NCBI GenBank assembly: GCA_013214065.1
Contig: JABSPK010000006.1
Location: forward strand, 62,001-126,000
DNA from: Flavobacteriaceae bacterium
GTDB taxonomy: Bacteria > Bacteroidota > Bacteroidia > Flavobacteriales > Flavobacteriaceae
DNA length: 64,000 nt
Direction: 5' to 3'
Positions 12,689 to 62,772 of the stretch are shown piece by piece (within the stretch, counting starts at the first letter, position 1; the number at the start of each line of letters is the position of its first letter). The notes beneath the pieces are model-generated. The model worked only from the letters and a program-made list of their open reading frames with translations. It was not told the origin of the DNA and made no database searches. The translations under genes were made by a program, and so were the position numbers.

Positions 12689-14374
12689 CTACTCTAAAAG
12701 TTCCAAAAGGGCAATATCGTAATCGTTCTCTAGGGTCACTTTTCCGTTTTTGACCACCACTTGGGTATCCGAATAGGTATCGTACAGGGTCGTGCCGTCA
12801 CCGAAGAAGCCTTTGACCCAAAGTGATTTTTTACCTTTTGGCAGGTCGAGTCCCACAACGACTTTGTCTTTGTAATCACCGTTGACATACGTACGTGAAA
12901 ACACATAGGGCTTGCTGGCCAGGCGTTTGTGTTTGCCCGCACCAACCGCGGGGTGGTTGGCCCTAAAACGGCCCAATTTCTGCCAGTGCGCGTGAATGTC
13001 CTGCACGGCAGGGACAGAATCAAGGTCTTCCCAATTCATAAACGAACGGAGTGTAGCGTCACCTTCGGTACCTTCGATGATCAAGGGTCTTGAGGTCTCG
13101 TCGCCATAATATACCTGTGATGCTCCAGGGGTCAACAACAACACGTTCGCCGCCCGATAGGGCTTGGCGCGTTCCTTGTCATACGGACTCCCATCATCAT
13201 GCGAAGTGAGGTAGTTCAAGACACTTTTGCCTTTCAATTTGGTGTTCAGTAGCCCGTTGTATTTTTTGAAGATCTCTTCATAGGGTTTGTCCCCATCGGT
13301 CTTCAACTCGAAATTGATCAAGCTGGTGAAGCCGTTATCGTAATAGTCGACCTCTTTGTCACCGAAATCATAAAGGCGACCGGTTGAGATGCCATAGTTG
13401 TAAACCTCACCGACCATATAAAAGGGGAGTTCGTCCAACACCCGGTCCGGATTCTTTTTCTTCCAGGTTAGAAAGGCGTATTCGGCTTCTTTCCGCAATT
13501 CGCCCCAAGCATTTTCATTGACGTGCTTCACGGTATCGAACCGAAAGCCGTCAACCCCGAAATCATTGATGTAGTCGGTCAACCATTTGATGATGTAAAA
13601 GCGTGGCGCCCTAGGGTAGCCGGTGCGCTCGAAAAACAACTGCAGTTCGTCCAATTCTTGGCTCAATCGGCCTTCGTCTTTCCATTTGGCCAAAAGGGCA
13701 TCAGGCAATTCTACAGGCTCATCCGATTCGGTGAGGATATCGGGAAGGTTTTTGACCAAGGTACATGCCGTGGTGTTCTTATAGGTCGTAAACTCACAGG
13801 CCGGTTCGGTACGTACCCAATCTTCAGGCCAGACCGGGTCTATATCGGTGACGGGTCCTGTGTGGTTGAGTACCACATCAAGCAAGACCCGAATGCCTTT
13901 GGCGTGGGCGGCTTTGACCAGGTTTTCCAATTCTTTTTTAGTGCCGAAGTTCGGATCGATGGCCGTCCAATCCTTGGCCCAATAACCATGGTAGCCATAC
14001 GTATTGCCCGTGCCTTCATTGGTGGCACCGTGGATCTGTTCCACAATAGGGGTAAACCAAATGGCATTGATCCCAAGGTTTGTAAAGTAATCTTCCTCAA
14101 TTTTTTTGGTGATACCCAAGATGTCACCGCCTTCGAATCCGCGTAAGACCGCGGTCGAGTCGGTGCGCTCGAAATTAACGTCGTTTTCCGTTTTTCCGTT
14201 ATTGAACCGATCGGTCAATAAAAAGTACACGTTGGCACCTTCCCAAACGAAAGGCGCTGTAGGTATGGGCGATACGTCTTCTTGTACTACGGTTTCTTTG
14301 GGGGTATCCTTCTTGACTTTGTTACATCCGAACAGGAATGACACTATCGACATAGCGATAAGTAGTTTTTTCAT
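12689..14374 (-). CDS. GH13 alpha-amylase family lipoprotein
   Basis: 561 residues with a lipoprotein signal (FLFGCN, Cys17). The four GH13 regions are present: DVVLNH (I), GFRFDTVKHV with the nucleophile Asp (II), MVGEVYNYG with the acid/base Glu (III) and YLTSHDDG with the transition-state Asp (IV). A C-terminal beta domain ends in DYDIALLELLE. It should hydrolyse alpha-1,4-glucans at the envelope. SusD/SusC partners, which define a starch-utilisation locus, are absent on both sides, so its role is more likely periplasmic maltodextrin or glycogen trimming. Exact bond specificity is not readable. Confidence 0.9.
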   Translation of the reverse strand: MKKLLIAMSIVSFLFGCNKVKKDTPKETVVQEDVSPIPTAPFVWEGANVYFLLTDRFNNGKTENDVNFERTDSTAVLRGFEGGDILGITKKIEEDYFTNLGINAIWFTPIVEQIHGATNEGTGNTYGYHGYWAKDWTAIDPNFGTKKELENLVKAAHAKGIRVLLDVVLNHTGPVTDIDPVWPEDWVRTEPACEFTTYKNTTACTLVKNLPDILTESDEPVELPDALLAKWKDEGRLSQELDELQLFFERTGYPRAPRFYIIKWLTDYINDFGVDGFRFDTVKHVNENAWGELRKEAEYAFLTWKKKNPDRVLDELPFYMVGEVYNYGISTGRLYDFGDKEVDYYDNGFTSLINFELKTDGDKPYEEIFKKYNGLLNTKLKGKSVLNYLTSHDDGSPYDKERAKPYRAANVLLLTPGASQVYYGDETSRPLIIEGTEGDATLRSFMNWEDLDSVPAVQDIHAHWQKLGRFRANHPAVGAGKHKRLASKPYVFSRTYVNGDYKDKVVVGLDLPKGKKSLWVKGFFGDGTTLYDTYSDTQVVVKNGKVTLENDYDIALLELLE

Positions 14375-36607: not shown

Positions 36608-36668
36608 CACAATACGGTAGATTGCTGTGGTATCCCCATTTGAAATTGCGCCATTCGAGAATTATCCC

Positions 36669-36676
36669 TAATTTTC
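36669..36676 (+). promoter_or_regulatory. Candidate promoter of the symporter-phosphorylase operon
   Basis: TAATTTTC differs at one base from TAnnTTTG and is preceded by TTG at 36646-36648 with a 20-nt spacer. The symporter ATG is 32 nt downstream. No operator repeat was noticed. Confidence 0.4.
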
Positions 36677-36707: not shown

Positions 36708-38312
36708 ATGAATTGGCTTGATTATACCATTATCGTCGTTTACTTATTGGGATTTCTCGGACTGGGTTATCTCTTCAAGGAAAACAAGAATTCAGGCGAT
36801 TATTTCTTGGGTGGACGAAGCATGGGATGGATTCCCCTCAGCCTTTCGACCATGGCGACCCAATTGTCGGCCATCAGCTTTATTTCGGCCCCGGCCTTCG
36901 TCGGTATCAAAGAAGGAGGTGGTCTGCAATGGCTGACCTACGAGTTCGGGGTACCTTTGGCCATGGCATTTTTATTGATCGCCCTGATTCCATCCTTGTA
37001 CAAAGCGGGCATCGTCAGTGTTTATGAATACCTCGAACGGCGATTCGATGCATCTTCGCGGCTGTTGATCAGTTTTGTTTTTCAGATTAGCCGTTCCGTG
37101 GCGACCGGGGTCATGGTCTATACCATGGCGTTGATCTTGCAAGCCACCACGGGTATCGAATTTTGGGTATCGGTCTTACTCATCGGGGCCATTACCCTGG
37201 TCTATTCCTTTCAAGGGGGAATGAAAGCCGTGATTTGGGGTGATGTGATCCAAATGTTGATTTTGTTTTTGGGGATTGTCATCTGTTTGGCATTTGGCAT
37301 TAGCGAATTGGGTGGATTCGATAATTTTCTGACCCAGGTCGATACGGATCGTTTGACAGCCGTCGATTTCTCGAAATGGGGCTTCGACAATGCCGATAAG
37401 AACGATGAATTCGGATTTTGGCCCATGGTCATCGGTGGTTTTTTCCTCTATGCCTCGTATTATGGTACCGATCAGACCCAAACCCAACGGATGCTTTCGG
37501 CCAAAGGGCTGCCCACCATTAAAAACTTGCTCTTGGCGAACGGCTTGTTCCGGTTTCCGGTCACCTTGACCTATTGTATCATGGGCTTGGTGTTGGGGAC
37601 TTTGTTGATGACCGATCTCGGTTTTCAAGACCAAATCGCAGAAGTGTATGCAGCCAATATCGATAGTTTGGAAGGAAAAAAAGCCGACCTGATGGTGCCG
37701 GTCTTTATCATAAAATATTTACCCAACGGGGTCATCGGGATTCTTTTGGTCGCTATCATGTCAGCGGCCATGTCCTCTTTGAGCTCAACGGTAAACTCCT
37801 TGTCAGCGGTTACCATTGAAGATTTCGTGAAGCGGTTCAAAGGGGATCTTTCAGACGACCAATATGTTAGGTATTCGCGTTTGCTCTCGGTATTCTGGGG
37901 CTTGGTTTGCCTGTTTTTCGCCTTTTTCGCCGGTAACATTGAAGGAACCGTCATCGAGGTGATCAATAAGGTGAGTTCCATTTTTTATGGTCCGATATTA
38001 GCGGCCTTTATTTTAGCCTTGTTGACGAAACGCACCCATGCCCTGGGCGCCAACATCGGAATCGTCATCGGCGTACTCCTCAACATGTACCTTTGGTTAT
38101 ACGTGCCCGAGGTATTCTGGTTCTGGTGGAATGCCATCGGTTGTGTGGTAACCATGCTCGTGGCGTATTCGATAAGCCGTTTGATTCCTAGAACGGCCAA
38201 AAAGGGAATTGCGGTCGAGTACTATGTGGCGAAAAAAGAATTGATCCTGCTCTTGGCTTATTTCGTGATCATCGTGTTGATCGCATTATCCTTAAAAAAC
38301 ATTTTAGCATAA
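36708..38312 (+). CDS. Sodium:solute symporter (SSS family), first gene of the glycerate/phosphorylase operon
   Basis: 534 residues with about 13-14 membrane segments, as in SGLT-like symporters. It starts WLDYTIIVVYLLGFLGLGYLFKENKNSGDYFLGGRSMGWIPLSLSTMATQLSAISFI, the standard SSS opening with the sodium-site serines. Later it has GGMKAVIWGDVIQ and IMSAAMSSLSSTVNSLSAVTIEDF, the sodium-binding TM8 motif. It probably imports a sugar or sugar-like solute with sodium. The phosphorylase starts 9 nt after its stop, so the imported solute may be the phosphorylase substrate. Confidence 0.92.
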   Translation: MNWLDYTIIVVYLLGFLGLGYLFKENKNSGDYFLGGRSMGWIPLSLSTMATQLSAISFISAPAFVGIKEGGGLQWLTYEFGVPLAMAFLLIALIPSLYKAGIVSVYEYLERRFDASSRLLISFVFQISRSVATGVMVYTMALILQATTGIEFWVSVLLIGAITLVYSFQGGMKAVIWGDVIQMLILFLGIVICLAFGISELGGFDNFLTQVDTDRLTAVDFSKWGFDNADKNDEFGFWPMVIGGFFLYASYYGTDQTQTQRMLSAKGLPTIKNLLLANGLFRFPVTLTYCIMGLVLGTLLMTDLGFQDQIAEVYAANIDSLEGKKADLMVPVFIIKYLPNGVIGILLVAIMSAAMSSLSSTVNSLSAVTIEDFVKRFKGDLSDDQYVRYSRLLSVFWGLVCLFFAFFAGNIEGTVIEVINKVSSIFYGPILAAFILALLTKRTHALGANIGIVIGVLLNMYLWLYVPEVFWFWWNAIGCVVTMLVAYSISRLIPRTAKKGIAVEYYVAKKELILLLAYFVIIVLIALSLKNILA

Positions 38313-38321
38313 GTACAGCAT

Positions 38322-39971
38322 ATGCGGCATTTAATTGAACGACTTTATCCCGATGCGGTCGATGAAGTGATGGCCGGAATTTCGGCCTTGAAGAATAGCT
38401 ATGATGGCCATCAAAACGAACGGCCCCTAGATCATACCGATAGCATCCTGATTACCTATGGTGATAGTTTCATTCGCGCTGGTCAAGCACCTTTGGTCAC
38501 CTTGCGGGAAGTAGCTGACGCTTATCTGCAACCTTTAAGTGCCATCCATCTACTGCCATGTTTTCCGTACTCATCGGATGATGGTTTCAGTGTCATCGAT
38601 TATTACCAGATCAACCCGGAATTGGGCGATTGGGGGCATATCGAAGACTTGGCAAAAGATCGTGACCTCATGTTCGATGCGGTCGTGAACCATATGTCTA
38701 AAGAATCAAAGTGGTTTCAAGGTTTTTTAAATGGGGATCCGCGTTTCAGTGACTATTTTATCGAAGCCGACCCTAGTATGGATTATTCGGCAGTGGTCCG
38801 GCCACGTGCTTTACCGCTCTTGCATGTTTTCGAAAAAGAAGGCACTCCTGTTTCGGTTTGGACCACGTTCAGCGAAGATCAGGTCGACTTGAACTACCGC
38901 AGTCCGAAAGTACTTCTACAGGTGCTCGACATTCTCTTGTATTATGCCAGCAAAGGGGCGCGATACGTACGATTGGATGCGATTGCCTTCCTTTGGAAGG
39001 AATTGGGGACCCCTTGTATCCATCTCGACCAGACCCATGAAGTGATCCAAGTCTATCGAAAGGTCATCGAGGATATGGGCAAGCAAATCGTATTGATCAC
39101 CGAGACCAATGTACCCCATGAGGAAAACATCAGCTATTTCGGAAACGGAACGAACGAGGCCCATATGGTCTATAATTTCACCTTACCTCCTTTGTTGGCC
39201 CATTCGCTTCGCACCCAAGATGTTGCTGAATTGACCGATTGGGCCGGAACACTGGAACTTCAAGGGGGAACTTGTTTTTTCAATTTTACCGCAAGCCATG
39301 ATGGGGTAGGGGTCAGGCCTTTACAGGGTATCATTGCCACGGATCAAATCGAGGCCCTGGCCGATACCGCTATTGCCCATGGTGGGTTCGTTTCGTACAA
39401 AGACAATGGCGACGGTACCAAATCGCCCTATGAGTTGAATTGCAATTATATGGATTTGCTCACCCACCCCGAACGACCGGATGCGGAACGGATCGACCGC
39501 TTTTTACTGACCCAATCGGTACTATTATGCATGCCGGGGGTCCCTGGAATTTATTACCACTCCATATTCGGCTCGGAAAATGATCGTGCGGCTGCGCTCT
39601 CTTCCGGAATCAATCGAAGGATCAACCGTTCCAAGTTGGATGCCGGGGAACTTCACGCGGCACTATCGAATCCGGATTCGTTCCGGGCCAAGGTGTATCG
39701 GGCCTATATGGCCTTGCTCGAAGTACGTACCTCCGAACCGCTGTTCAATCCTTATGGTCAGGCAGGCTATAAGCGTATTGGATCGGTGTTCGTCATCACC
39801 CGTAAACAGCAAAGCGAATCCTTTTTTGGCCTGCACAATTTTTCGGATGCCGCAGTGGATCTTAAGGCTTTCGCGCCTGACGCGGTTGACCTATTGACCG
39901 GAAAGAAAATGGATGAAGCTACATGGCAATTGCCCCCGTTCGGAATTTTATGGATAAAAACCAAAGGATGA
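38322..39971 (+). CDS. GH13_18 sugar phosphorylase, probable glucosylglycerate phosphorylase
   Basis: 549 residues. The alpha-amylase-type barrel is complete: DAVVNH (119-124), YVRLDA with the nucleophile Asp219, LITETNVPHEEN with acid/base Glu261, and TASHDGVGVRP with the stabilising Asp327. The overall pattern resembles YcjM-like sucrose/glucosylglycerate phosphorylases more than bifidobacterial sucrose phosphorylase. The reaction would be glycosyl-acceptor + phosphate to alpha-glucose-1-phosphate + acceptor. Its stop overlaps the start of a glycerate kinase (ATGA), which points to D-glycerate as the released acceptor. Sucrose or sucrose-6-phosphate remains possible. Confidence 0.85.
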   Translation: MRHLIERLYPDAVDEVMAGISALKNSYDGHQNERPLDHTDSILITYGDSFIRAGQAPLVTLREVADAYLQPLSAIHLLPCFPYSSDDGFSVIDYYQINPELGDWGHIEDLAKDRDLMFDAVVNHMSKESKWFQGFLNGDPRFSDYFIEADPSMDYSAVVRPRALPLLHVFEKEGTPVSVWTTFSEDQVDLNYRSPKVLLQVLDILLYYASKGARYVRLDAIAFLWKELGTPCIHLDQTHEVIQVYRKVIEDMGKQIVLITETNVPHEENISYFGNGTNEAHMVYNFTLPPLLAHSLRTQDVAELTDWAGTLELQGGTCFFNFTASHDGVGVRPLQGIIATDQIEALADTAIAHGGFVSYKDNGDGTKSPYELNCNYMDLLTHPERPDAERIDRFLLTQSVLLCMPGVPGIYYHSIFGSENDRAAALSSGINRRINRSKLDAGELHAALSNPDSFRAKVYRAYMALLEVRTSEPLFNPYGQAGYKRIGSVFVITRKQQSESFFGLHNFSDAAVDLKAFAPDAVDLLTGKKMDEATWQLPPFGILWIKTKG

Positions 39972-41095
39972 ATATCGTTGTCGTACCGGATAAATTCAAG
40001 GGGTCCTTGACGGCCGAACAGGTAATCGAGATCTGTTCGGAGACCTTACGGGAGTTGTACCCTGGGGTAGGTATCAAGGCTGCCCTCCTTTCTGATGGTG
40101 GCGATGGATTTTTGTCCTCGGTCGCCCAGTATTCGAAGACGAATGAAGTGATGGTCGATACCGTCGATGGCTTGATGCGACCGATCCAAGCTCCGTTTCT
40201 GTATGATTCGACACAACGGACCGCCTATGTTGAATTGGCAACGACGGCCGGTTTGGTGCTATTGGATCCTAGCGAGCGAAACCCGATGCATACGTCGACC
40301 TACGGTGTGGGTCTTCAAATACGGCATGCGATCGCTATGGGTGCCAAATCCATTTATTTGGGTATTGGAGGCAGTGCGACCAACGATGGGGCAATCGGGA
40401 TCGCCCAAGCCCTTGGCTATCGATTTATGGACGAATCCGGTGAAACTTTAGCACCGATCGGAGCGAATTTGGAGGCCATTGCTACGATTGCAGGGCAATC
40501 GGACTTGGAAGGGGTTTCCTTTTTTGCCATTAACGATGTCAACAATCCGTTGTATGGTCCTGATGGTGCCGCTTTTGTCTACGCCCCACAAAAAGGAGCG
40601 GATTCGGAACAGGTCAAACTTCTTGATCAAGGGTTGCGGCATTTAGCGGAAACCGTAAAGGGGGACTTACAGCGCGATGAAGCGCAAACACCGGGTTCGG
40701 GTTCGGCCGGAGGAACGGGCTATGGCCTGAAGGTATTTTGCGGAGCGACCTATGTCAGTGGCATCGACTTTCTTTTACAGCTTTCAGGAATCGCGTCCTA
40801 TTTGGAATCCCATCCTGTGGATTTGATCTTGACCGGGGAAGGGAAAATCGATGGCCAGACCTTACATGGAAAGTTGATCAGCGGCGTCATAGGATTGGCC
40901 AAAAAACATGGGATACCGACCTTGGGAATATGCGGCATGGCCGATTTAACCGAGGCCGAGCGACAAAAATTAGGGTTGGATGAACTCGTGGTCATCGCCG
41001 ACCCCAATGAATCAGTAGCCTATAATATGGAACGGGCCGAACCCTTATTGAGAACCGCTTTGAAAACCCATTTTAAATCGAAAACATGGAATTGA
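39968..41095 (+). CDS. Glycerate 2-kinase (GarK/GlxK family)
   Basis: 375 residues from the ATG at 39968, which overlaps the phosphorylase stop. Family signatures: MNIVVVPDKFKGSLTAEQV at the start, LLSDGGDGFLSSV, STYGVGLQIRHAIAMGAKSIYLGIGGSATNDGAIGIAQALGYRF, PGSGSAGGTGYGLKVF, and LILTGEGKIDGQTLHGKLISGV. These enzymes phosphorylate D-glycerate to 2-phosphoglycerate, which enters lower glycolysis. The gene overlaps the downstream GntP permease by 10 nt, so phosphorylase, kinase and permease are translationally linked. Confidence 0.94.
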   Translation: MNIVVVPDKFKGSLTAEQVIEICSETLRELYPGVGIKAALLSDGGDGFLSSVAQYSKTNEVMVDTVDGLMRPIQAPFLYDSTQRTAYVELATTAGLVLLDPSERNPMHTSTYGVGLQIRHAIAMGAKSIYLGIGGSATNDGAIGIAQALGYRFMDESGETLAPIGANLEAIATIAGQSDLEGVSFFAINDVNNPLYGPDGAAFVYAPQKGADSEQVKLLDQGLRHLAETVKGDLQRDEAQTPGSGSAGGTGYGLKVFCGATYVSGIDFLLQLSGIASYLESHPVDLILTGEGKIDGQTLHGKLISGVIGLAKKHGIPTLGICGMADLTEAERQKLGLDELVVIADPNESVAYNMERAEPLLRTALKTHFKSKTWN

Positions 41096-42408
41096 TCGTT
41101 TTGTTCGGGGCCATCGCCTTTATCATTTTTACCACCATACGGTTCAAAATGCATCCCGTTTTTTCATTGACCCTGACGGCCTTATTGACCGGCTTTTTTT
41201 TGGGAATGTCGCCCGAGTCCATCATCAAGGCCATGACCGAAGGCTTTGGAAAGACCTTATCCGGAATCGGATTGGTGATCGCATTCGGTACAGTGATCGG
41301 TACCTATCTTGAAAAAAGTGGGGCCACCACGGTACTGGCCAATGTTTTTTTAAAGGCTATCGGTCTCAAACGCTCCCCATTGGCTTTGAATTTAGCCGGG
41401 TATGTGATATCGATACCGGTCTTTTGTGATTCAGGTTTCATTATACTGTCTTCGTTGAACAAAGCCCTCAGCAAGAAAACCGGATTGCCCATGCTGGTTT
41501 TTGCGGTTTCTTTGGCGACGGGCCTCTATGCCGCCCATGTGTTCGTTCCGCCCACACCGGGTCCTTTGGCCGCCGCCGCCATGCTAGATGCCGATTTGGG
41601 GACGGTCTTGCTCTTGGGGTTGGCCGTATCCTTACCCGTTTCATTGACCGGGTATATTTGGGCACGACTTGTTGGGAAATCACTGAAATCCGACTCCGAA
41701 GTCCCGGAACAGGATGTTCTTGAACAGCCCCAAAGCCCAAAACCAACTGCTTTTCATGCTTTTTTGCCGCTATTAAGCCCTGTGGTGTTGATTGCCTTGA
41801 AGTCCATCGCGAACTACCCGACCCATCCCTTCGGACAAGAAGCTTTTTTTAAGGCGATCGACTTTCTCGGCAACCCGATAATCGCCTTGTTGGTCGGGGT
41901 GTTATTTGCTTTTCTTTTAGGGAGGAAGATAGTCGATGATTCCAAAAAAACGTGGGTTCCCTTAGCTTTGAAGCAAGCCGGATTGATCATTTTGATCACC
42001 GGGGCTGGTGGGGCTTTCGGAGCCATCTTACGAACGATCGATTTGGCCGGATTGTTGGCGTTGGAATCGGGCACCGGGATCAGCGGACTCTTGATTGCCT
42101 TTGCGATTGCCGCCTTATTGAAAACGGCACAAGGGTCGTCAACGGTCGCCATAATTACCACAGCTGCGATTTTCGCACCTTTGTTGACCGCCTTCTCGTT
42201 GACCGATACCGTTGAGGTTGCCCTAACCGTTTTGGCTATTGGTGCCGGGGCGATGACCGTATCACATATCAACGACAGCTACTTTTGGGTCGTATCACAG
42301 TTTTCAGGGATGGATGTGAAAACCGCCTTGAAAGGACACAGTTTGGCAACTTTGTTTCAAGGATTGGTCGGCATTGGCATGATCCTGTTCCTATATCTGC
42401 TGTTGTGA
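41086..42408 (+). CDS. GntP family permease (gluconate/glycerate-type proton symporter)
   Basis: 440 residues with about 12 membrane segments. GntP features: TGFFLGMSPESIIKAMTEGFGKTLSGIGLVIAFGTVIGTYLEKSG, ISIPVFCDSGFIILSSLNKALSK, GLYAAHVFVPPTPGPLAAAAML, and MTVSHINDSYFWVVSQFSGM near the C-terminus. The family imports gluconate, and some members D-glycerate-like hydroxy acids, with protons. Encoded right after a glycerate kinase, it is a good candidate for a D-glycerate permease or, less likely, for glucosylglycerate. Its stop abuts the convergent DUF4249 gene. Confidence 0.92.
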   Translation: MELIVLFGAIAFIIFTTIRFKMHPVFSLTLTALLTGFFLGMSPESIIKAMTEGFGKTLSGIGLVIAFGTVIGTYLEKSGATTVLANVFLKAIGLKRSPLALNLAGYVISIPVFCDSGFIILSSLNKALSKKTGLPMLVFAVSLATGLYAAHVFVPPTPGPLAAAAMLDADLGTVLLLGLAVSLPVSLTGYIWARLVGKSLKSDSEVPEQDVLEQPQSPKPTAFHAFLPLLSPVVLIALKSIANYPTHPFGQEAFFKAIDFLGNPIIALLVGVLFAFLLGRKIVDDSKKTWVPLALKQAGLIILITGAGGAFGAILRTIDLAGLLALESGTGISGLLIAFAIAALLKTAQGSSTVAIITTAAIFAPLLTAFSLTDTVEVALTVLAIGAGAMTVSHINDSYFWVVSQFSGMDVKTALKGHSLATLFQGLVGIGMILFLYLLL

Positions 42409-43248
42409 TTATTCAACCGTGATGGTCTGGGTGTATTCTTGCACCACGGCAAAATACCCAAGGGCGAATTCATCGGGGATCAATACATTGTCGAAAAAGT
42501 CGATATTATCCAATTCGGTCACATCGAAGATGTTGCCCCGAACAGTGCCGGCAGGTGTTTCGAATACCCCAAAAGTGTCTTCCGATTGTTCGATCAGCTG
42601 GTTCATGTAGTTGTAAAAGTTCAAGTCGGCCCCTAAAATGCTGACCGTCAATTCTTGCCCTGGTTCGAATTGTTGGTCGTAGAAATACGAAAATGAAAAT
42701 TGTTGTCCCTGAATGAATTGATCTTCAACGGTGGTGAAATTACCGAACCCCAGATCAAAGACATAAAAGTCGTTACGATCTCCAGGATCGGTGAAGGTGA
42801 TGATGATTTCGGTGTCGTCTTCGTCGAACAAGGTTTCGGTGCCCAATTCGATACGGTCCATAGGTACGGTCTCGACATAGGGGGTTCTGGCGAAATACAA
42901 GCGATCTTCCCAATCGATCTGTAAAATCATCTCTTGGCCCGGCTCCAAACTCGATAATGTTCCGCGTTGTCGGTACACCCCGGATCCAGGGTCATCGTAA
43001 TCTACCAAAATCAATCCTCCAATCGCGATTTGCTGCAAATTGGTCACTGGGATCTCACCGAAGAACGAATCGGTCAAACTGACTTTGACCTCGTAATCGA
43101 CGATTTGCGAATCAGGGTCGATCCGAATCAAGGCATTGACGATCAGCCGGGGTTCTTCTTCGGGTACGTTGACCTCAATAACATCTTCGCAGCCTAACAA
43201 GAGTATAAGTAAGCCACTATACAGCCCGAAGATGCGAAGACGTACCAT
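42409..43248 (-). CDS. DUF4249 lipoprotein, second copy
   Basis: 279 residues with a lipoprotein signal (LILLLGCED, Cys20). The mature start EDVIEVNVPEEEPRLIVNALIRID is the DUF4249 hallmark, followed by beta-rich repeats (VSLTDSFFGEIPVTNLQ, YRQRGTLSSLEPGQEMILQIDW). The end GNIFDVTELDNIDFF...LGYFAVVQEYTQTITVE is nearly the same as in the upstream copy, so the two genes are tandem duplicates 3 nt apart. It is probably on the outer membrane, working with the TonB receptor of the same operon. Ligand unknown. Confidence 0.88.
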   Translation of the reverse strand: MVRLRIFGLYSGLLILLLGCEDVIEVNVPEEEPRLIVNALIRIDPDSQIVDYEVKVSLTDSFFGEIPVTNLQQIAIGGLILVDYDDPGSGVYRQRGTLSSLEPGQEMILQIDWEDRLYFARTPYVETVPMDRIELGTETLFDEDDTEIIITFTDPGDRNDFYVFDLGFGNFTTVEDQFIQGQQFSFSYFYDQQFEPGQELTVSILGADLNFYNYMNQLIEQSEDTFGVFETPAGTVRGNIFDVTELDNIDFFDNVLIPDEFALGYFAVVQEYTQTITVE

Positions 43249-43251
43249 GGC

Positions 43252-44115
43252 TTATTGAATCGTAATGGTACGCCTGTATTCTTGAACAACGGCGAAATAA
43301 CCCAAAGGAAAGACATCAGGTTGACCGACATTGTCGAACAAATCGATGTTATCAAGATCGGTGACATCGAAAATGTTGCCCCGAACGGTAGCGACGGGGG
43401 TTTGGAAGACCCCGGCATCGTCTTCGGTCTGTTCGATCAACAGGTCGATATAGTTGAAGAAGGCCTCATCGGCCCCCATCAAGGTAACCGTGAGTTCGTC
43501 ACCAGGTTGCAAGTCGCGCTCTACGAAATAGGAGAATTCGAACTCCTCCCCATCGAAGAATTGATCTTCCAAAGCGAAAAACTCCCCATCCCCGAAATCA
43601 AGGATGTAAAAATCATTGGTGCCCGGGTTATCGGTGATGGTCAACTTGATCTCGGTATCATCATCATCGAACAAGGTTTCATCGCCCTGTTCCAAATTGT
43701 CGATAGGAACGCTTCGCTGGTAGAAGGTGCGGGCGAAATACAACCGCCCTTCGTGGGTGAGTTGCAATAAAAGTTCGCCATCTTCAAAAAAACGAAGTCC
43801 GATCGGGTCGTCATCTTGGTACATGCCGGAACCTGGTGCGGTTTCCAACAAGGTGACCGCATTGCCTCCACCGTCGGTGGGCAGGCTTAAATTCGTAATG
43901 GTGATATCTCGCAATCCCGTAAGGGGAATCGTTCCGAAAAACGAACTGGTCAGCGATACTTTGATGATGGGTCTGAAGAATTCCTCGCTTTCGTCAATGC
44001 GGATCAAGGCCTCGACGATCAAACGGGGATCTTCGGAAGGGACATCCACCTCAATAACATCCTCACACGAGAACAACAATAGGATTCCTAAAAGTGCGAT
44101 AAAGAACTTTTTCAT
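43252..44115 (-). CDS. DUF4249 lipoprotein, first copy
   Basis: 287 residues with a lipoprotein signal (GILLLFSCED, Cys17). It shares blocks with the next gene: CEDVIEVDVPSEDPRLIVEALIRID, VSLTSSFFGTIPLTGLRDITI, GDELTVTLMGAD and GNIFDVTDLDNIDLFDN...GYFAVVQEYRRTITIQ. In Bacteroidetes DUF4249 proteins are regularly encoded next to a TonB-dependent receptor, as here (2-nt gap). A surface or periplasmic-face accessory lipoprotein that binds the cargo or caps the barrel is the likely role. The cargo is not identifiable. Confidence 0.88.
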   Translation of the reverse strand: MKKFFIALLGILLLFSCEDVIEVDVPSEDPRLIVEALIRIDESEEFFRPIIKVSLTSSFFGTIPLTGLRDITITNLSLPTDGGGNAVTLLETAPGSGMYQDDDPIGLRFFEDGELLLQLTHEGRLYFARTFYQRSVPIDNLEQGDETLFDDDDTEIKLTITDNPGTNDFYILDFGDGEFFALEDQFFDGEEFEFSYFVERDLQPGDELTVTLMGADEAFFNYIDLLIEQTEDDAGVFQTPVATVRGNIFDVTDLDNIDLFDNVGQPDVFPLGYFAVVQEYRRTITIQ

Positions 44116-44117
44116 AG

Positions 44118-46517
44118 CTAAAACTTAAAGTTGTAGGTGACTGCTGGGACGATACCGAAGATCGAAGTTCGGATGGCCTCGTTTCTTCCGGTGTCTTGGT
44201 TCTGTCTGAAATTGATCGAAGCCGCGTTCATGCGGTTGTACAGGTTATAAACACTAAAGACCCATTCAGACTGTAGTTTCCTTGTTTTGTTTTTCCTTGA
44301 TTTCAAGGTCGCCGAGATATCCAGACGATGGTAATCGGGCAAGCGCTCCTGGTTTCGCAAACCGAAATACGGTACGACCAAGCCCTCGAATTCGAACTGG
44401 CCGATTGGATAGTTCGTTGGTTGACCGGTTTGGTAAATGAAATTGGCGTTGAAACTCCATTTGTCATTCAGCTCATAATTCCCATATAGGGCGATATCAT
44501 GGGTTTTATCGAACGGGGTATTATACCATTCACCGAAATTGATCCCGGTTTCCATGTTCGAGCGCCCGTTGTCAAAGGCCGGTTCACGGCCCGGGGTGCG
44601 TTGTTCCGATTTGGAAAGCGTATACGCCAACCACCCTTGCAATCTCCCGGTATTCTTTCGCAATAAGAACTCCAGTCCGTACGCGCGCGCCTCCCCATTT
44701 AGGATTACTTGCTCGATCGCATTGTTCGCGATCAAGTCGGCCCCATCGATATAATCGATCCGGTTTTGAATATCCTTGTAAAACGCTTCCGTTTCAAGCG
44801 AATAGGCCCCATTATCGATATCCTTGAAAAAGCCGATCGCGTATTGGTCCAGCAATTGGGGTTCGACAAACGGACCACTTGGTGTCCAAACATCCAAGGG
44901 GGTGGGGGAACTGGTATTCGACAGGAGGTGCAGGTACTGGGCAAGGCGGGTGTAGCTCACCTTGATCGAACTGTTGTTCGAAAAACTGTAGGCCAAAGAA
45001 GCACGGGGTTCGAAATTGAAGAACTTCTTCAAAGTACCACTCCGCCCGGGATTGATCGTATCGATCGGTTCGGCCTCTTGATAGACCAAGGTGAACGGAT
45101 CGAAAATCACGGGACTGTCGTTTTCGTAGACGAAAAACTCATCTTGTCCGAGGCGATTGAATTGGCTTACCCGCAAGCCGTAGCCGACACTGAGCCGATC
45201 GGAAATCTCGTGCTCTACATCTACATAGAGTGCATTTTCGTTGGCATATTTCTTGGTCAGTTGTTCTTCAACGATTCCCGAATCCTCACTGTTGGGGCGG
45301 ATTTTGCCGGGGTTGAAGACATAATAGGTGTTGTTTAAGCCGTAATTGATCTGCAGTTTATCGCTGACGTAATGCTTCAAATCGTACTTGACATTGAAGT
45401 TTTGAATGCCCGAATCCCATTCAAATCCGACGAAATCAAGTTCCAACCCATAAAAATAGTCGGAGTAGATCAGGGAGAGGTTCGAAAATAACTTATCTGA
45501 AAAGAGATGGTTCCACCTAAAATTTCCGACGGCGTTGCCATAGGTATTCACGAAACTATCATTGATACTGAACAGGTCACGCCCAAAATAACCCGAGAGG
45601 TAGATGCTGTTCCGCTCGTTGATCTTATGGCTGATCTTGGCGTTGACATCATAAAAGTAGGCGCGGTTATCGACATCGAACAAGGGTAAAAACAAGTGCG
45701 CGTAGGAGGCCCTGCCACCGGCCAAGAACGCCGTGCGGTCTTTGGTGATAGGCCCTTCGATCAATAGCCTACTTGCCACGGCACCGATACCGCCATTGAC
45801 CTTGGTTTCCTTACTGTTTCCTTCACGCTGGAAAATTTCAAGGACCGAGGATACCCGTCCTCCATAGCGGGCAGGAATTCCCCCTTTATATAATTTGATA
45901 TCCTTGATCGCATCCGGATTGAATACGGAAAAGAACCCGAAAAGGTGGGAGGAGTTGAAAATGGTGGCCTCATCCAACAAGATCAGGTTTTGATCAGCGG
46001 CGCCCCCACGCACGTTGAAGCCCGAAGAGGCTTCACCCGCATTGGTTACCCCAGGAAGTAGTAATAGTGATTTGATGACATCGGCCTCACCCAAGACCAC
46101 GGGTATTTTCTTAATGGTCTGTACTGCCAAGGTGTTGACACTCATTTGCGGTGCCCTAATGTTCAATTGTTCCGCTTTTTCCGTTACGACGACCTCATCC
46201 AACTGTTCGGCTTCGGCCTCCATACGGAAGTTGATTTTGGTGTCACCGTTCAAATCGATGTTCCGAACGATATCCTGAAATCCCAAATAACTGATGACGA
46301 GGTTGTACTCGCCTTCGGGTAAGGTAATCGAATAAAATCCGTATTCATTGGTGGTGGTGCCCGTTCGTAGTTCGGTTATCCCGATGGTGACCCCGATCAT
46401 GGTCTCGTTGCTAGCGGCTTCTGAAATCGTGCCGCTAATGGTATATCGTTGTTGGGAAAAGATCAGTTGGGATAAAAACAAGAGTGCCGGTAAAAGCACT
46501 TTGAATTTGTTCAGCAT
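44118..46517 (-). CDS. TonB-dependent receptor partnered with DUF4249 lipoproteins
   Basis: 799 residues. A signal peptide ends at about 22 (LLFLSQLIFSQQ). The CarbopepD_reg domain runs about 25-105 (ISGTISEAASNETMIGVTIGI, TTNEYGFYSITLPEGEYNLVISYLGFQDI). A TonB box EQLDEVVVTEK and a plug with KKIPVVLGEADVIKSLLLLPGVTNAGEASSGFNVRGGAADQNLILLDEATIFNSSHLFG follow, and then the barrel to residue 799. This matches the receptor subtype that is followed by DUF4249. It leads the operon. TATATTTA near 46534-46541 on the minus strand is a weak promoter candidate. Confidence 0.92.
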   Translation of the reverse strand: MLNKFKVLLPALLFLSQLIFSQQRYTISGTISEAASNETMIGVTIGITELRTGTTTNEYGFYSITLPEGEYNLVISYLGFQDIVRNIDLNGDTKINFRMEAEAEQLDEVVVTEKAEQLNIRAPQMSVNTLAVQTIKKIPVVLGEADVIKSLLLLPGVTNAGEASSGFNVRGGAADQNLILLDEATIFNSSHLFGFFSVFNPDAIKDIKLYKGGIPARYGGRVSSVLEIFQREGNSKETKVNGGIGAVASRLLIEGPITKDRTAFLAGGRASYAHLFLPLFDVDNRAYFYDVNAKISHKINERNSIYLSGYFGRDLFSINDSFVNTYGNAVGNFRWNHLFSDKLFSNLSLIYSDYFYGLELDFVGFEWDSGIQNFNVKYDLKHYVSDKLQINYGLNNTYYVFNPGKIRPNSEDSGIVEEQLTKKYANENALYVDVEHEISDRLSVGYGLRVSQFNRLGQDEFFVYENDSPVIFDPFTLVYQEAEPIDTINPGRSGTLKKFFNFEPRASLAYSFSNNSSIKVSYTRLAQYLHLLSNTSSPTPLDVWTPSGPFVEPQLLDQYAIGFFKDIDNGAYSLETEAFYKDIQNRIDYIDGADLIANNAIEQVILNGEARAYGLEFLLRKNTGRLQGWLAYTLSKSEQRTPGREPAFDNGRSNMETGINFGEWYNTPFDKTHDIALYGNYELNDKWSFNANFIYQTGQPTNYPIGQFEFEGLVVPYFGLRNQERLPDYHRLDISATLKSRKNKTRKLQSEWVFSVYNLYNRMNAASINFRQNQDTGRNEAIRTSIFGIVPAVTYNFKF

Positions 46518-61909: not shown

Positions 61910-62772
61910 TAGAATAGGGCCACCAAGATAATACTGATTACGGCCAACACGATCCCGATCCAATTGCTTTTTATCATACGTTCTTTGAACAGCACGATAC
62001 CCAACAAGGTCGAACACATGACAATGGCCACATTGTTCAAAGTGAAAATCGCGGCACTGGGCCAGCGGTCGTTTTGCAATGCCCGCAACAAGAAGAATAT
62101 GGAAAAGTAATTCGGTACCCCCAATGCGATACCTCCCAAAATGTTTTTACCATTGAACTTGAGCGGTTGTTGGACTGCCCTAATCATAATGAACACCAAG
62201 CCGGTGCAAGCAGCGGCCGCGAAAACCGTGGCCGAAAATAAGGGAAACTCCGCTTCCGATAAATGCCCTTGCTGAAAATACTTGATGGCCGTATCGATCG
62301 CACCAGATCCCAAAAAGACCAAAACGGGCAAGACGAGGGTCGCTTTTGAAAAGGTGGGACTACCTTCTTTGACGGAAGCGAAATAGACGGCTGCCAAGGC
62401 CATAAGAATACCGCAGACCTTGAAGAACGATAGCTGTTCACCATAAATGAAAACCCCGAACAAAACCGGGAGCACCAGCGACATTTTGGTGGCAACGGAG
62501 GCAACGGAAACACCCGCCTGTTGGGAAGTTTTCGCCATGATATTGAATACCAAGATGAACAATACCCCAAGCCCCAAAGTACCTAGAAACCATGACGAAT
62601 CCGTGATGCCGTCGAAGGGGATGGGTGCTGCATAGAACAAGACTCCCGTCAAACAGGCCACCATGTAATTGACGATTATGGCATATAGGGTTTGGATGCG
62701 ATATACCTCGAACAATTTAAAAATGACGAAAATCAGGCTGGAACAAAGGACGCTGAGCGCTAAATCAAACAT
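61909..62772 (-). CDS. EamA/DMT-type transporter
   Basis: 287 residues with ten hydrophobic segments in two repeats, the drug/metabolite transporter layout. Repeat 1 includes VLFILVFNIMAKTSQQAGVSVASVATKMSLVLPVLFGVFIYGEQLSFFKVCGI. Repeat 2 includes GVPNYFSIFFLLRALQNDRWPSAAIFTLNNVAIVMCSTLLGIVLFKERM. It is an inner-membrane exporter or importer of a small metabolite, unidentified. It overlaps yigZ by 1 nt and the HAD hydrolase gene by 8 nt, so the three are co-transcribed. Confidence 0.92.
   Translation of the reverse strand: MFDLALSVLCSSLIFVIFKLFEVYRIQTLYAIIVNYMVACLTGVLFYAAPIPFDGITDSSWFLGTLGLGVLFILVFNIMAKTSQQAGVSVASVATKMSLVLPVLFGVFIYGEQLSFFKVCGILMALAAVYFASVKEGSPTFSKATLVLPVLVFLGSGAIDTAIKYFQQGHLSEAEFPLFSATVFAAAACTGLVFIMIRAVQQPLKFNGKNILGGIALGVPNYFSIFFLLRALQNDRWPSAAIFTLNNVAIVMCSTLLGIVLFKERMIKSNWIGIVLAVISIILVALF

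Follow-up and report, generated by a model that had tools for sequence, protein, structure and literature searches.

A predicted operon for the uptake and phosphorolysis of glucosylglycerate in a member of the Flavobacteriaceae

The 64,000 nucleotides analysed here, hereafter called the window (positions 62,001 to 126,000 of contig JABSPK010000006.1, GenBank assembly GCA_013214065.1), come from a Flavobacteriaceae bacterium whose 3.48 Mb genome is assembled in 24 contigs. They contain four consecutive genes (table 1) which, very probably, form an operon for the catabolism of the compatible solute 2-O-α-D-glucosyl-D-glycerate, a sugar acid that protects cells against salt, taken from the environment. 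A sodium:solute symporter (SSS, the SSF family of Pfam) would import glucosylglycerate together with sodium; an enzyme of subfamily 18 of glycoside hydrolase family 13 (GH13_18), read here as a glucosylglycerate phosphorylase (GGaP), would convert the imported compound and phosphate into α-glucose 1-phosphate and D-glycerate by a retaining mechanism, with Asp219 as the nucleophile and Glu261 as the acid/base; a glycerate kinase (GK) would turn D-glycerate into phosphoglycerate entering glycolysis; and a permease of the GntP family would move free D-glycerate, most likely inward. The sequence itself shows the order of the genes, the families of their products, the catalytic residues and signatures, the position of the enzyme in its tree and the constant association of the symporter with glycosylglycerate-cleaving enzymes; the transported substrate, the direction of flux, the role of the GntP permease and co-transcription of the genes are inferred. 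An earlier note on this DNA had proposed an operon for glucosylglycerate catabolism and was essentially right, given the GGaP motifs of the enzyme, its position in the tree, the company that the symporter keeps and the presence of a sole kinase of the PF02595 type.

Table 1. Genes of the predicted glucosylglycerate operon and adjacent features in the window
Feature	Position	Strand	Evidence or remark
SSS (SSF, PF00474) sodium:solute symporter, 534 aa	36708..38312	+	Pfam SSF 3e-48
GH13_18 glucosylglycerate phosphorylase (GGaP), predicted, 549 aa	38322..39971	+	Pfam Alpha-amylase 7.1e-25; signatures; YcjM likeness
Glycerate kinase (GK), PF02595	39968..41095	+	Pfam Gly_kinase 1.1e-110
GntP-family permease, 440 aa	41086..42408	+	Pfam GntP_permease 6.7e-101; TIGR00791 over cut-off
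Weak promoter-like match TTG-N20-TAATTTTC	36646..36676	+	Upstream of operon; relaxed pattern
Two DUF4249 genes and TonB receptor	42409-46517	convergent with operon	Downstream

The layout that had been described, namely four forward-strand genes spaced 9, -4 and -10 nt apart, was recovered in full by the calling of open reading frames (ORFs) and Pfam searches, the distances being taken from ORF coordinates with the kinase starting at 39968. The longest kinase ORF opens at 39923; because the Gly_kinase match begins only at its residue 18, the ATG at 39968 is the likely start of the protein. This ATG lies within an ATGA that creates a 4-nt overlap with the stop of the phosphorylase gene, bearing out the overlap claimed before and giving the distance of -4. 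The arrangement is not due to chance, since other genera, too, have the series SSS-GH13_18-GK, and the exact order of all four genes is found also in two further loci, L065 and L087 (L and G numbers are our designations for loci and genomes), from closely related genomes and with phosphorylases that are neighbours in the tree. As regards a recent foreign origin, the GC content of the phosphorylase gene (49.0%) is ordinary for the window, while that of its third codon positions (52.4%) is about two standard deviations low with respect to 32 mechanically called ORFs.

How firmly can the GH13_18 enzyme be assigned to the GGaP type? Its residues Asp219, Glu261 and Asp327 align with the catalytic positions of GH13 in 93 of 93 rows and in both outgroups, in agreement with the intact active site claimed at first. 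Published comparisons, cited here and below by their PMC numbers, distinguish GGaP from other GH13_18 enzymes by a (T/S)ETN motif at the tip of β-strand 5 and a Glu that replaces Gln in loop A (PMC7178133; the loop-A Glu is also given in PMC6720575). The window enzyme has TETN at residues 260-263 and Glu371, not Gln, at the loop-A position. Both signatures are present in 93 of 93 rows, a count that includes the window's own row and is partly circular, as the 80 named relatives had been retrieved with six search peptides, one of which contained the loop-A Glu. Two sucrose phosphorylases annotated as gtfA, from plasmids of Agrobacterium and Enterococcus, have His at the position of Asn263 and Gln at that of Glu371; the glucosylglycerol phosphorylase 7xdq also has Gln at the latter position in the alignment with proteins of the Protein Data Bank (PDB). 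YcjM of Escherichia coli, which is annotated as a glucosylglycerate phosphorylase, is 45% identical to the window enzyme over residues 31-549. The latter resembles the known GGaP enzymes (EC 2.4.1.352) of Meiothermus/Allomeiothermus silvanus, Spirochaeta thermophila and E. coli in its catalytic residues, (T/S)ETN motif and loop-A Glu.

The phylogenetic evidence comes from quick trees of the phosphorylases and symporters, built without bootstraps. The phosphorylase tree contains the 93 GGaP-like rows and two outgroups, leaving aside L060, L063, L074 and L078 (on contigs shared with L039-L042), L101, L108, L113 and L137 (gene missed by the ORF caller), and L086 and L090 (below the length limit). 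In this tree the 93 rows, YcjM included, are split from the two sucrose phosphorylases with 100% support in the SH-like approximate likelihood-ratio test (SH-aLRT) and along long branches; YcjM is the only characterised GGaP present, and its place inside the 93 rows is unsettled. The window enzyme belongs to a set of 10 rows (99%), in which one sequence from Saprospiraceae and one from Planctomycetota accompany rows of Flavobacteriaceae or of the same family. A clustering with strict sucrose phosphorylases, which the earlier note had named as grounds for abandoning the assignment, failed to appear at the sequence level: the enzyme lies on the YcjM side and carries both GGaP motifs. The window holds a second gene of the alpha-amylase family, at 12689-14374 on the minus strand.

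Independent support for glucosylglycerate as the substrate comes from the symporter. The protein scores 165.1 bits with PF00474 (cut-off 22.8) and 253.9 with TIGR00813 (cut-off 184), and the solved structures closest to it in sequence are symporters of sodium/iodide, multivitamins and monocarboxylates; its substrate is proposed from the gene neighbours. In our search of 397 genomes of the same family, in which at most three candidates were scored per genome (two for the receptor discussed below) and the counts of positives are lower bounds, relatives of the symporter were found in 58 genomes (E <= 1e-150), and we inspected all 58 loci. A GH63 gene resembling glucosylglycerate/mannosylglycerate hydrolases lies within 1 kb of the symporter gene and on the same strand in 54 of them, with symporters 51-82% identical to that of the window; the remaining four, including the window genome, adjoin GGaP without GH63. 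One of the 54 hydrolase loci, in genome G180, has GGaP as well.

The GH63-like protein of locus L042 matches PDB 2z07 (9e-88), a Thermus protein, and 6g3n (5e-61), called a mycobacterial hydrolase. In a column-wise alignment, the equivalents of Tyr36, Trp40, Trp42, Asp43, Asp182, Arg216, Tyr222 and Glu419 are kept in all 54 GH63-like proteins; these are eight of the thirteen residues named in PMC6608630, among them the two catalytic acids as well as the Arg and Tyr that bind glycerate. A reciprocal search of 60 genomes found an L042-like hydrolase in seven, every one of which has the symporter. Among the 37 family genomes covered by both searches, eight have the symporter, and all of these except the window genome have the hydrolase, which is absent from the 29 without the symporter. 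Here no L042-like hydrolase was found at E <= 1e-80, and a GH63 search retrieved only weaker members of the family (109 bits at best). Because the symporter is so constantly paired with enzymes that cleave glycosylglycerates (GH63 in 54 loci, GGaP in four), it is most likely a glycosylglycerate importer.

The third gene is a clear glycerate kinase, scoring 370.6 bits with Gly_kinase (cut-off 23.3) and 330.5 with TIGR00045 (cut-off 168.45), and each of the two proteins that it matches in the PDB, 3cwc and 1to6, bears the name glycerate kinase. It is the only PF02595 match in the window genome, and a kinase gene of this type is found near 47 of the 54 hydrolase loci. Phylogenetically it groups with the kinases of L065 and L087 (97/83), within a wider set (94/90) that comprises kinases of other GGaP loci, two from Planctomycetota and one from a hydrolase locus. 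The GntP gene occupies the same operon position in L065, L087 and L061, as it does in a locus of the hydrolase version, L189. The latter is the only one of the 54 hydrolase loci with GntP nearby, so the permease is an occasional part of the system. A precedent for its function exists in Shewanella, where GrtP, a homologue of gluconate permeases encoded in an operon with garK, has been predicted to be a D-glycerate permease (PMC2996990). The window GntP, with a PF02595 kinase beside it, fits this precedent, and we propose that it is a D-glycerate permease, which would take up free glycerate or release a surplus of it.

Beyond the partly circular signature count, several points weigh against our reading. 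The best NCBIfam model for the phosphorylase is that of sucrose phosphorylase, TIGR03852, at 174.8 bits, far below the cut-off of 334.4, which means that the enzyme is not called GGaP by any curated model; its best PDB matches are called sucrose and glucosylglycerol phosphorylases. Such matches would suit an operon built around a sucrose, sucrose 6F-phosphate or glucosylglycerol phosphorylase and accompanied by an unrelated glycerate kinase, an explanation that we find scarcely credible: the enzyme has TETN and Glu371, lacks the loop-A Gln of those enzymes, and stands apart from the two sucrose phosphorylases in a tree that left the sucrose 6F-phosphate and glucosylglycerol enzymes outside. 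A second activity of the window phosphorylase is nevertheless possible, because a GH13_18 enzyme acting on both sucrose and glycerate, XpGP, has been reported (PMC11009771). The same source describes the GGaP reaction as reversible and, with a candidate glycerate permease in the operon, the genes might work in reverse, GntP importing glycerate from which the phosphorylase would build glucosylglycerate as an osmolyte using glucose 1-phosphate. We judge such use very unlikely, as the product of the glycerate kinase gene overlapping that of the phosphorylase would drain the glycerate, and in 54 of the 58 genomes the symporter is partnered by a protein resembling hydrolases, which would not synthesise in the cell.

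Doubt of another kind concerns the sugar. The GH63 neighbour in L042, the one that was scanned, reaches 316.8 against a cut-off of 550 in the NCBIfam model of glucosylglycerate hydrolase, and the GH63 relative from M. hassiacum cleaves mannosylglycerate as well as glucosylglycerate (PMC6608630); for these reasons the symporter may carry glucosyl- or mannosylglycerate. Moreover, in five Bacteroidota loci (L066, L067, L068, L070 and L073) SSS and GGaP are joined by a GH38 enzyme. The GH38 protein of L066 best fits the model of mannosylglycerate hydrolase, below cut-off (487.7 vs 1138), and shares 73-83% identity with the others. A glycosyltransferase is present as well in L066, where its best model is mannosylglucosylglycerate synthase, again below cut-off (437.4 vs 640), and four of the five loci have one of this kind. 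The operon might then serve mannosylglycerate or mannosylglucosylglycerate besides or instead of glucosylglycerate, with the symporter as a general importer of glycosylglycerates and GGaP handling the glucosyl part only. This is the alternative that we take most seriously, though we think it less likely than not: the window operon has neither GH38 nor GH63, its symporter shares just 52-55% identity with the GH38-associated ones, and its GH13_18 signatures are those of the group of M. silvanus, S. thermophila and E. coli enzymes called strict GGaP (PMC7178133). The system as a whole seems to serve 2-O-glycosylglycerates, of which the window would represent the version with the phosphorylase alone. 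As a separate observation, the glycosyltransferases like that of L066 (L066:6647-7993, L068:6659-8005, L070:6651-7979 and L075:5280-6623) lie inside seemingly catabolic operons, where a synthase is odd.

The distribution of the gene set also tempers our interpretation. A GGaP-like gene is present in at least nine of the 397 family genomes (E <= 1e-100). Five of the nine (the window genome, G210, G101, G102 and G180) have the SSS-GGaP-GK array; in the other four (G382, G002, G227 and G179, with loci L043-L046) GGaP comes after the genes of a HAD phosphatase, of a glycerate kinase of the MOFRL type and of a GpgS-like synthase, which we read as a biosynthetic, make-and-recycle setting with a different kinase family. 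GGaP in a biosynthetic context has been published, too (PMC7178133). By analogy, the cell could make glucosylglycerate by itself and use the phosphorylase only to recycle this internal osmolyte. Such turnover appears improbable for the window operon, which has two permeases and no gene for synthesis; the GpgS-like queries from L043 and L046 were unmatched in its genome, where other types of synthase were not searched, and the L046 query was positive in four of four control genomes.

In the loci read, neighbouring genes were labelled by BLAST to one reference protein each, all verified by Pfam or NCBIfam except the LacI-like one, which rests on likeness to E. coli YcjW and is Pfam-verified for L041 only. 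In 22 of 80 named loci GGaP has an SSS homologue on its strand and no more than two genes away, and these are all Bacteroidota by title or tree label save one Calditrichota; a PF02595-type kinase is so placed in 18 and GntP in three. Hence 58 of the 80 have no SSS counted within two genes, four of them being cases in which the ORF caller missed GGaP. The phylum search, covering 395 genomes with at most three candidates scored in each and positives again as lower bounds, found a GGaP-like gene in at least 22 genomes (E <= 1e-80), two of which are the window genome and G180. In each of the other 20 loci, which lie outside the family, no match to SSS, GK or GntP was found in about 4.5 kb around GGaP, nor in the longer flanks read for 12 of them; the link with SSS is thus no general property of GGaP. 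Locus L061 has the window's order without the kinase, which is located elsewhere in that genome. To this can be added that the window operon has no regulator and no adjacent TonB receptor of the kind that L066 has and that stands beside 28 of the 54 hydrolase versions. The earlier note had remarked on the lack of a LacI regulator, and such a gene is indeed absent here, though 29 of the 54 have a LacI-like gene alongside in divergent orientation. When the L041 protein, a LacI by Pfam, was used as the query, just 32-34% identical matches were found elsewhere in the window genome, and we claim no orthology for them.

Some loci deserve mention on their own. The Planctomycetota loci L064 and L086 have a GGaP-glycerate kinase pair near that of the window (57 and 59%, 48 and 49% identity); the SSS gene is not beside this pair in L064, and L086 starts at a contig end. 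At L072:481-2004 the SSS gene, which adjoins a GGaP gene, is read as two ORFs.

In evolutionary terms, the most instructive comparison is between the window and L189, in genome G349. There, the genes HisS-NUDIX-M42-DUF4294 and DUF4249-DUF4249-TonB enclose a cassette of GH63-SSS-GntP where the window has SSS-GGaP-GK-GntP, the window differing further by a small DUF6095 gene before SSS. The flanking proteins of the two loci are 75-94% identical, except NUDIX (51%) and DUF4249 (48%). GGaP most likely stands in the window operon in place of the GH63 hydrolase, and the whole cassette, including its symporter, seems to have been exchanged between the two versions, because their SSS proteins are only 53% identical. 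The locus L059 of Eudoraea, which unites a TonB receptor, GH63, SSS (86%) and GGaP, is a plausible intermediate between hydrolase and phosphorylase forms. In the SSS tree, which holds one very long branch (L085), the window symporter and those of seven other GGaP loci form a single clade (100% SH-aLRT) beside hydrolase-linked symporters (82%). The other GGaP-linked ones (L066-L068, L070 and L073; L069 with L079) fall elsewhere among hydrolase-linked symporters, and because of this scatter it seems that SSS and GGaP came to be paired on more than one occasion. Compared with the Croceivirga loci L087 and L061, the window proteins are 88-89% identical for SSS, 56-61% for the phosphorylase, 53% for the kinase (L087) and 62-63% for GntP; the flanking M42 and DUF4294 proteins are 79-93% identical, so that the enzymes have either diverged much faster or been replaced.

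Downstream, the window SSS clade has the TonB/DUF4249 genes after the operon in six of its seven other loci, L059 ending at a contig edge, and in 14 of the 54 hydrolase loci, too, the receptor is no more than six ORFs away. A specific link between this receptor and the operon was rejected, since the receptor has a match in at least 329 of the 397 family genomes (E <= 1e-180). Upstream, the promoter-like match, obtained with a relaxed form of a Bacteroidetes consensus, is a single hit found in one of eight upstream regions and not shared by seven relatives; we do not consider it evidence of function.

The enzyme is of a known kind, and it is its pairing with an SSS importer that appears little described. 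Glycerate kinase is already published as a frequent neighbour of GGaP (PMC7178133). The E. coli ycjM region differs from the window operon in having genes for an ABC transporter and the repressor YcjW instead of SSS and GntP, with no glycerate kinase in the 20 kb read. The GH63 operons of the same family share a related symporter, the PF02595-type kinase in most loci and the same inferred substrate; they have a hydrolase-like gene in place of the phosphorylase and, in about half of the loci, the LacI-like gene and TonB receptor that the window operon lacks. Prochlorococcus has a glucosylglycerate operon that combines recycling genes with an adjacent putative transporter, for which use of external glucosylglycerate has been suggested (PMC11631117). 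Prochlorococcus differs in having glucosylglycerate as a major compatible solute. The grtP-garK operon of Shewanella resembles ours in its gluconate-permease homologue and GarK-type kinase, while the available sections of PMC2996990 mention neither phosphorylase nor SSS in it. Among the papers listed in searches of the open literature, which cover few subscription papers, we found neither an SSS importer of glycosylglycerates nor an exchange of hydrolase and phosphorylase, which is weak evidence of their absence from print. The earlier note had not recognised the gene set as described; the set is not unique, being shared by L065 and L087.

After hydrolysis, free glucose must be activated at the cost of ATP, an expense that phosphorolysis avoids. 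The phosphorylase version saves ATP relative to the commoner GH63 operon of the family, in which the hydrolase would free glucose. Taking the comparative evidence together, we lean towards the view that the symporters of this lineage, found across many genera of the family, are driven by sodium and dedicated to the import of glycosylglycerates, that the cleaving enzyme beside them has been swapped between GH63 and GH13_18 more than once, and that the phosphorylase form is an energy-saving scavenger of an osmolyte from marine cyanobacteria and other microbes.

A review of the enzyme family points out that a putative GGaP is present in many organisms in which no accumulation of glucosylglycerate is assumed, and calls for its role there to be studied (PMC7178133). 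The window operon offers a testable answer: a GGaP host may feed on glucosylglycerate made by others, via a specific importer. If so, the operon would name the likely transporter for a marine osmolyte and would show an exchange of hydrolase for phosphorylase at one chromosomal site, which would be useful to predict which bacteria recycle this carbon.

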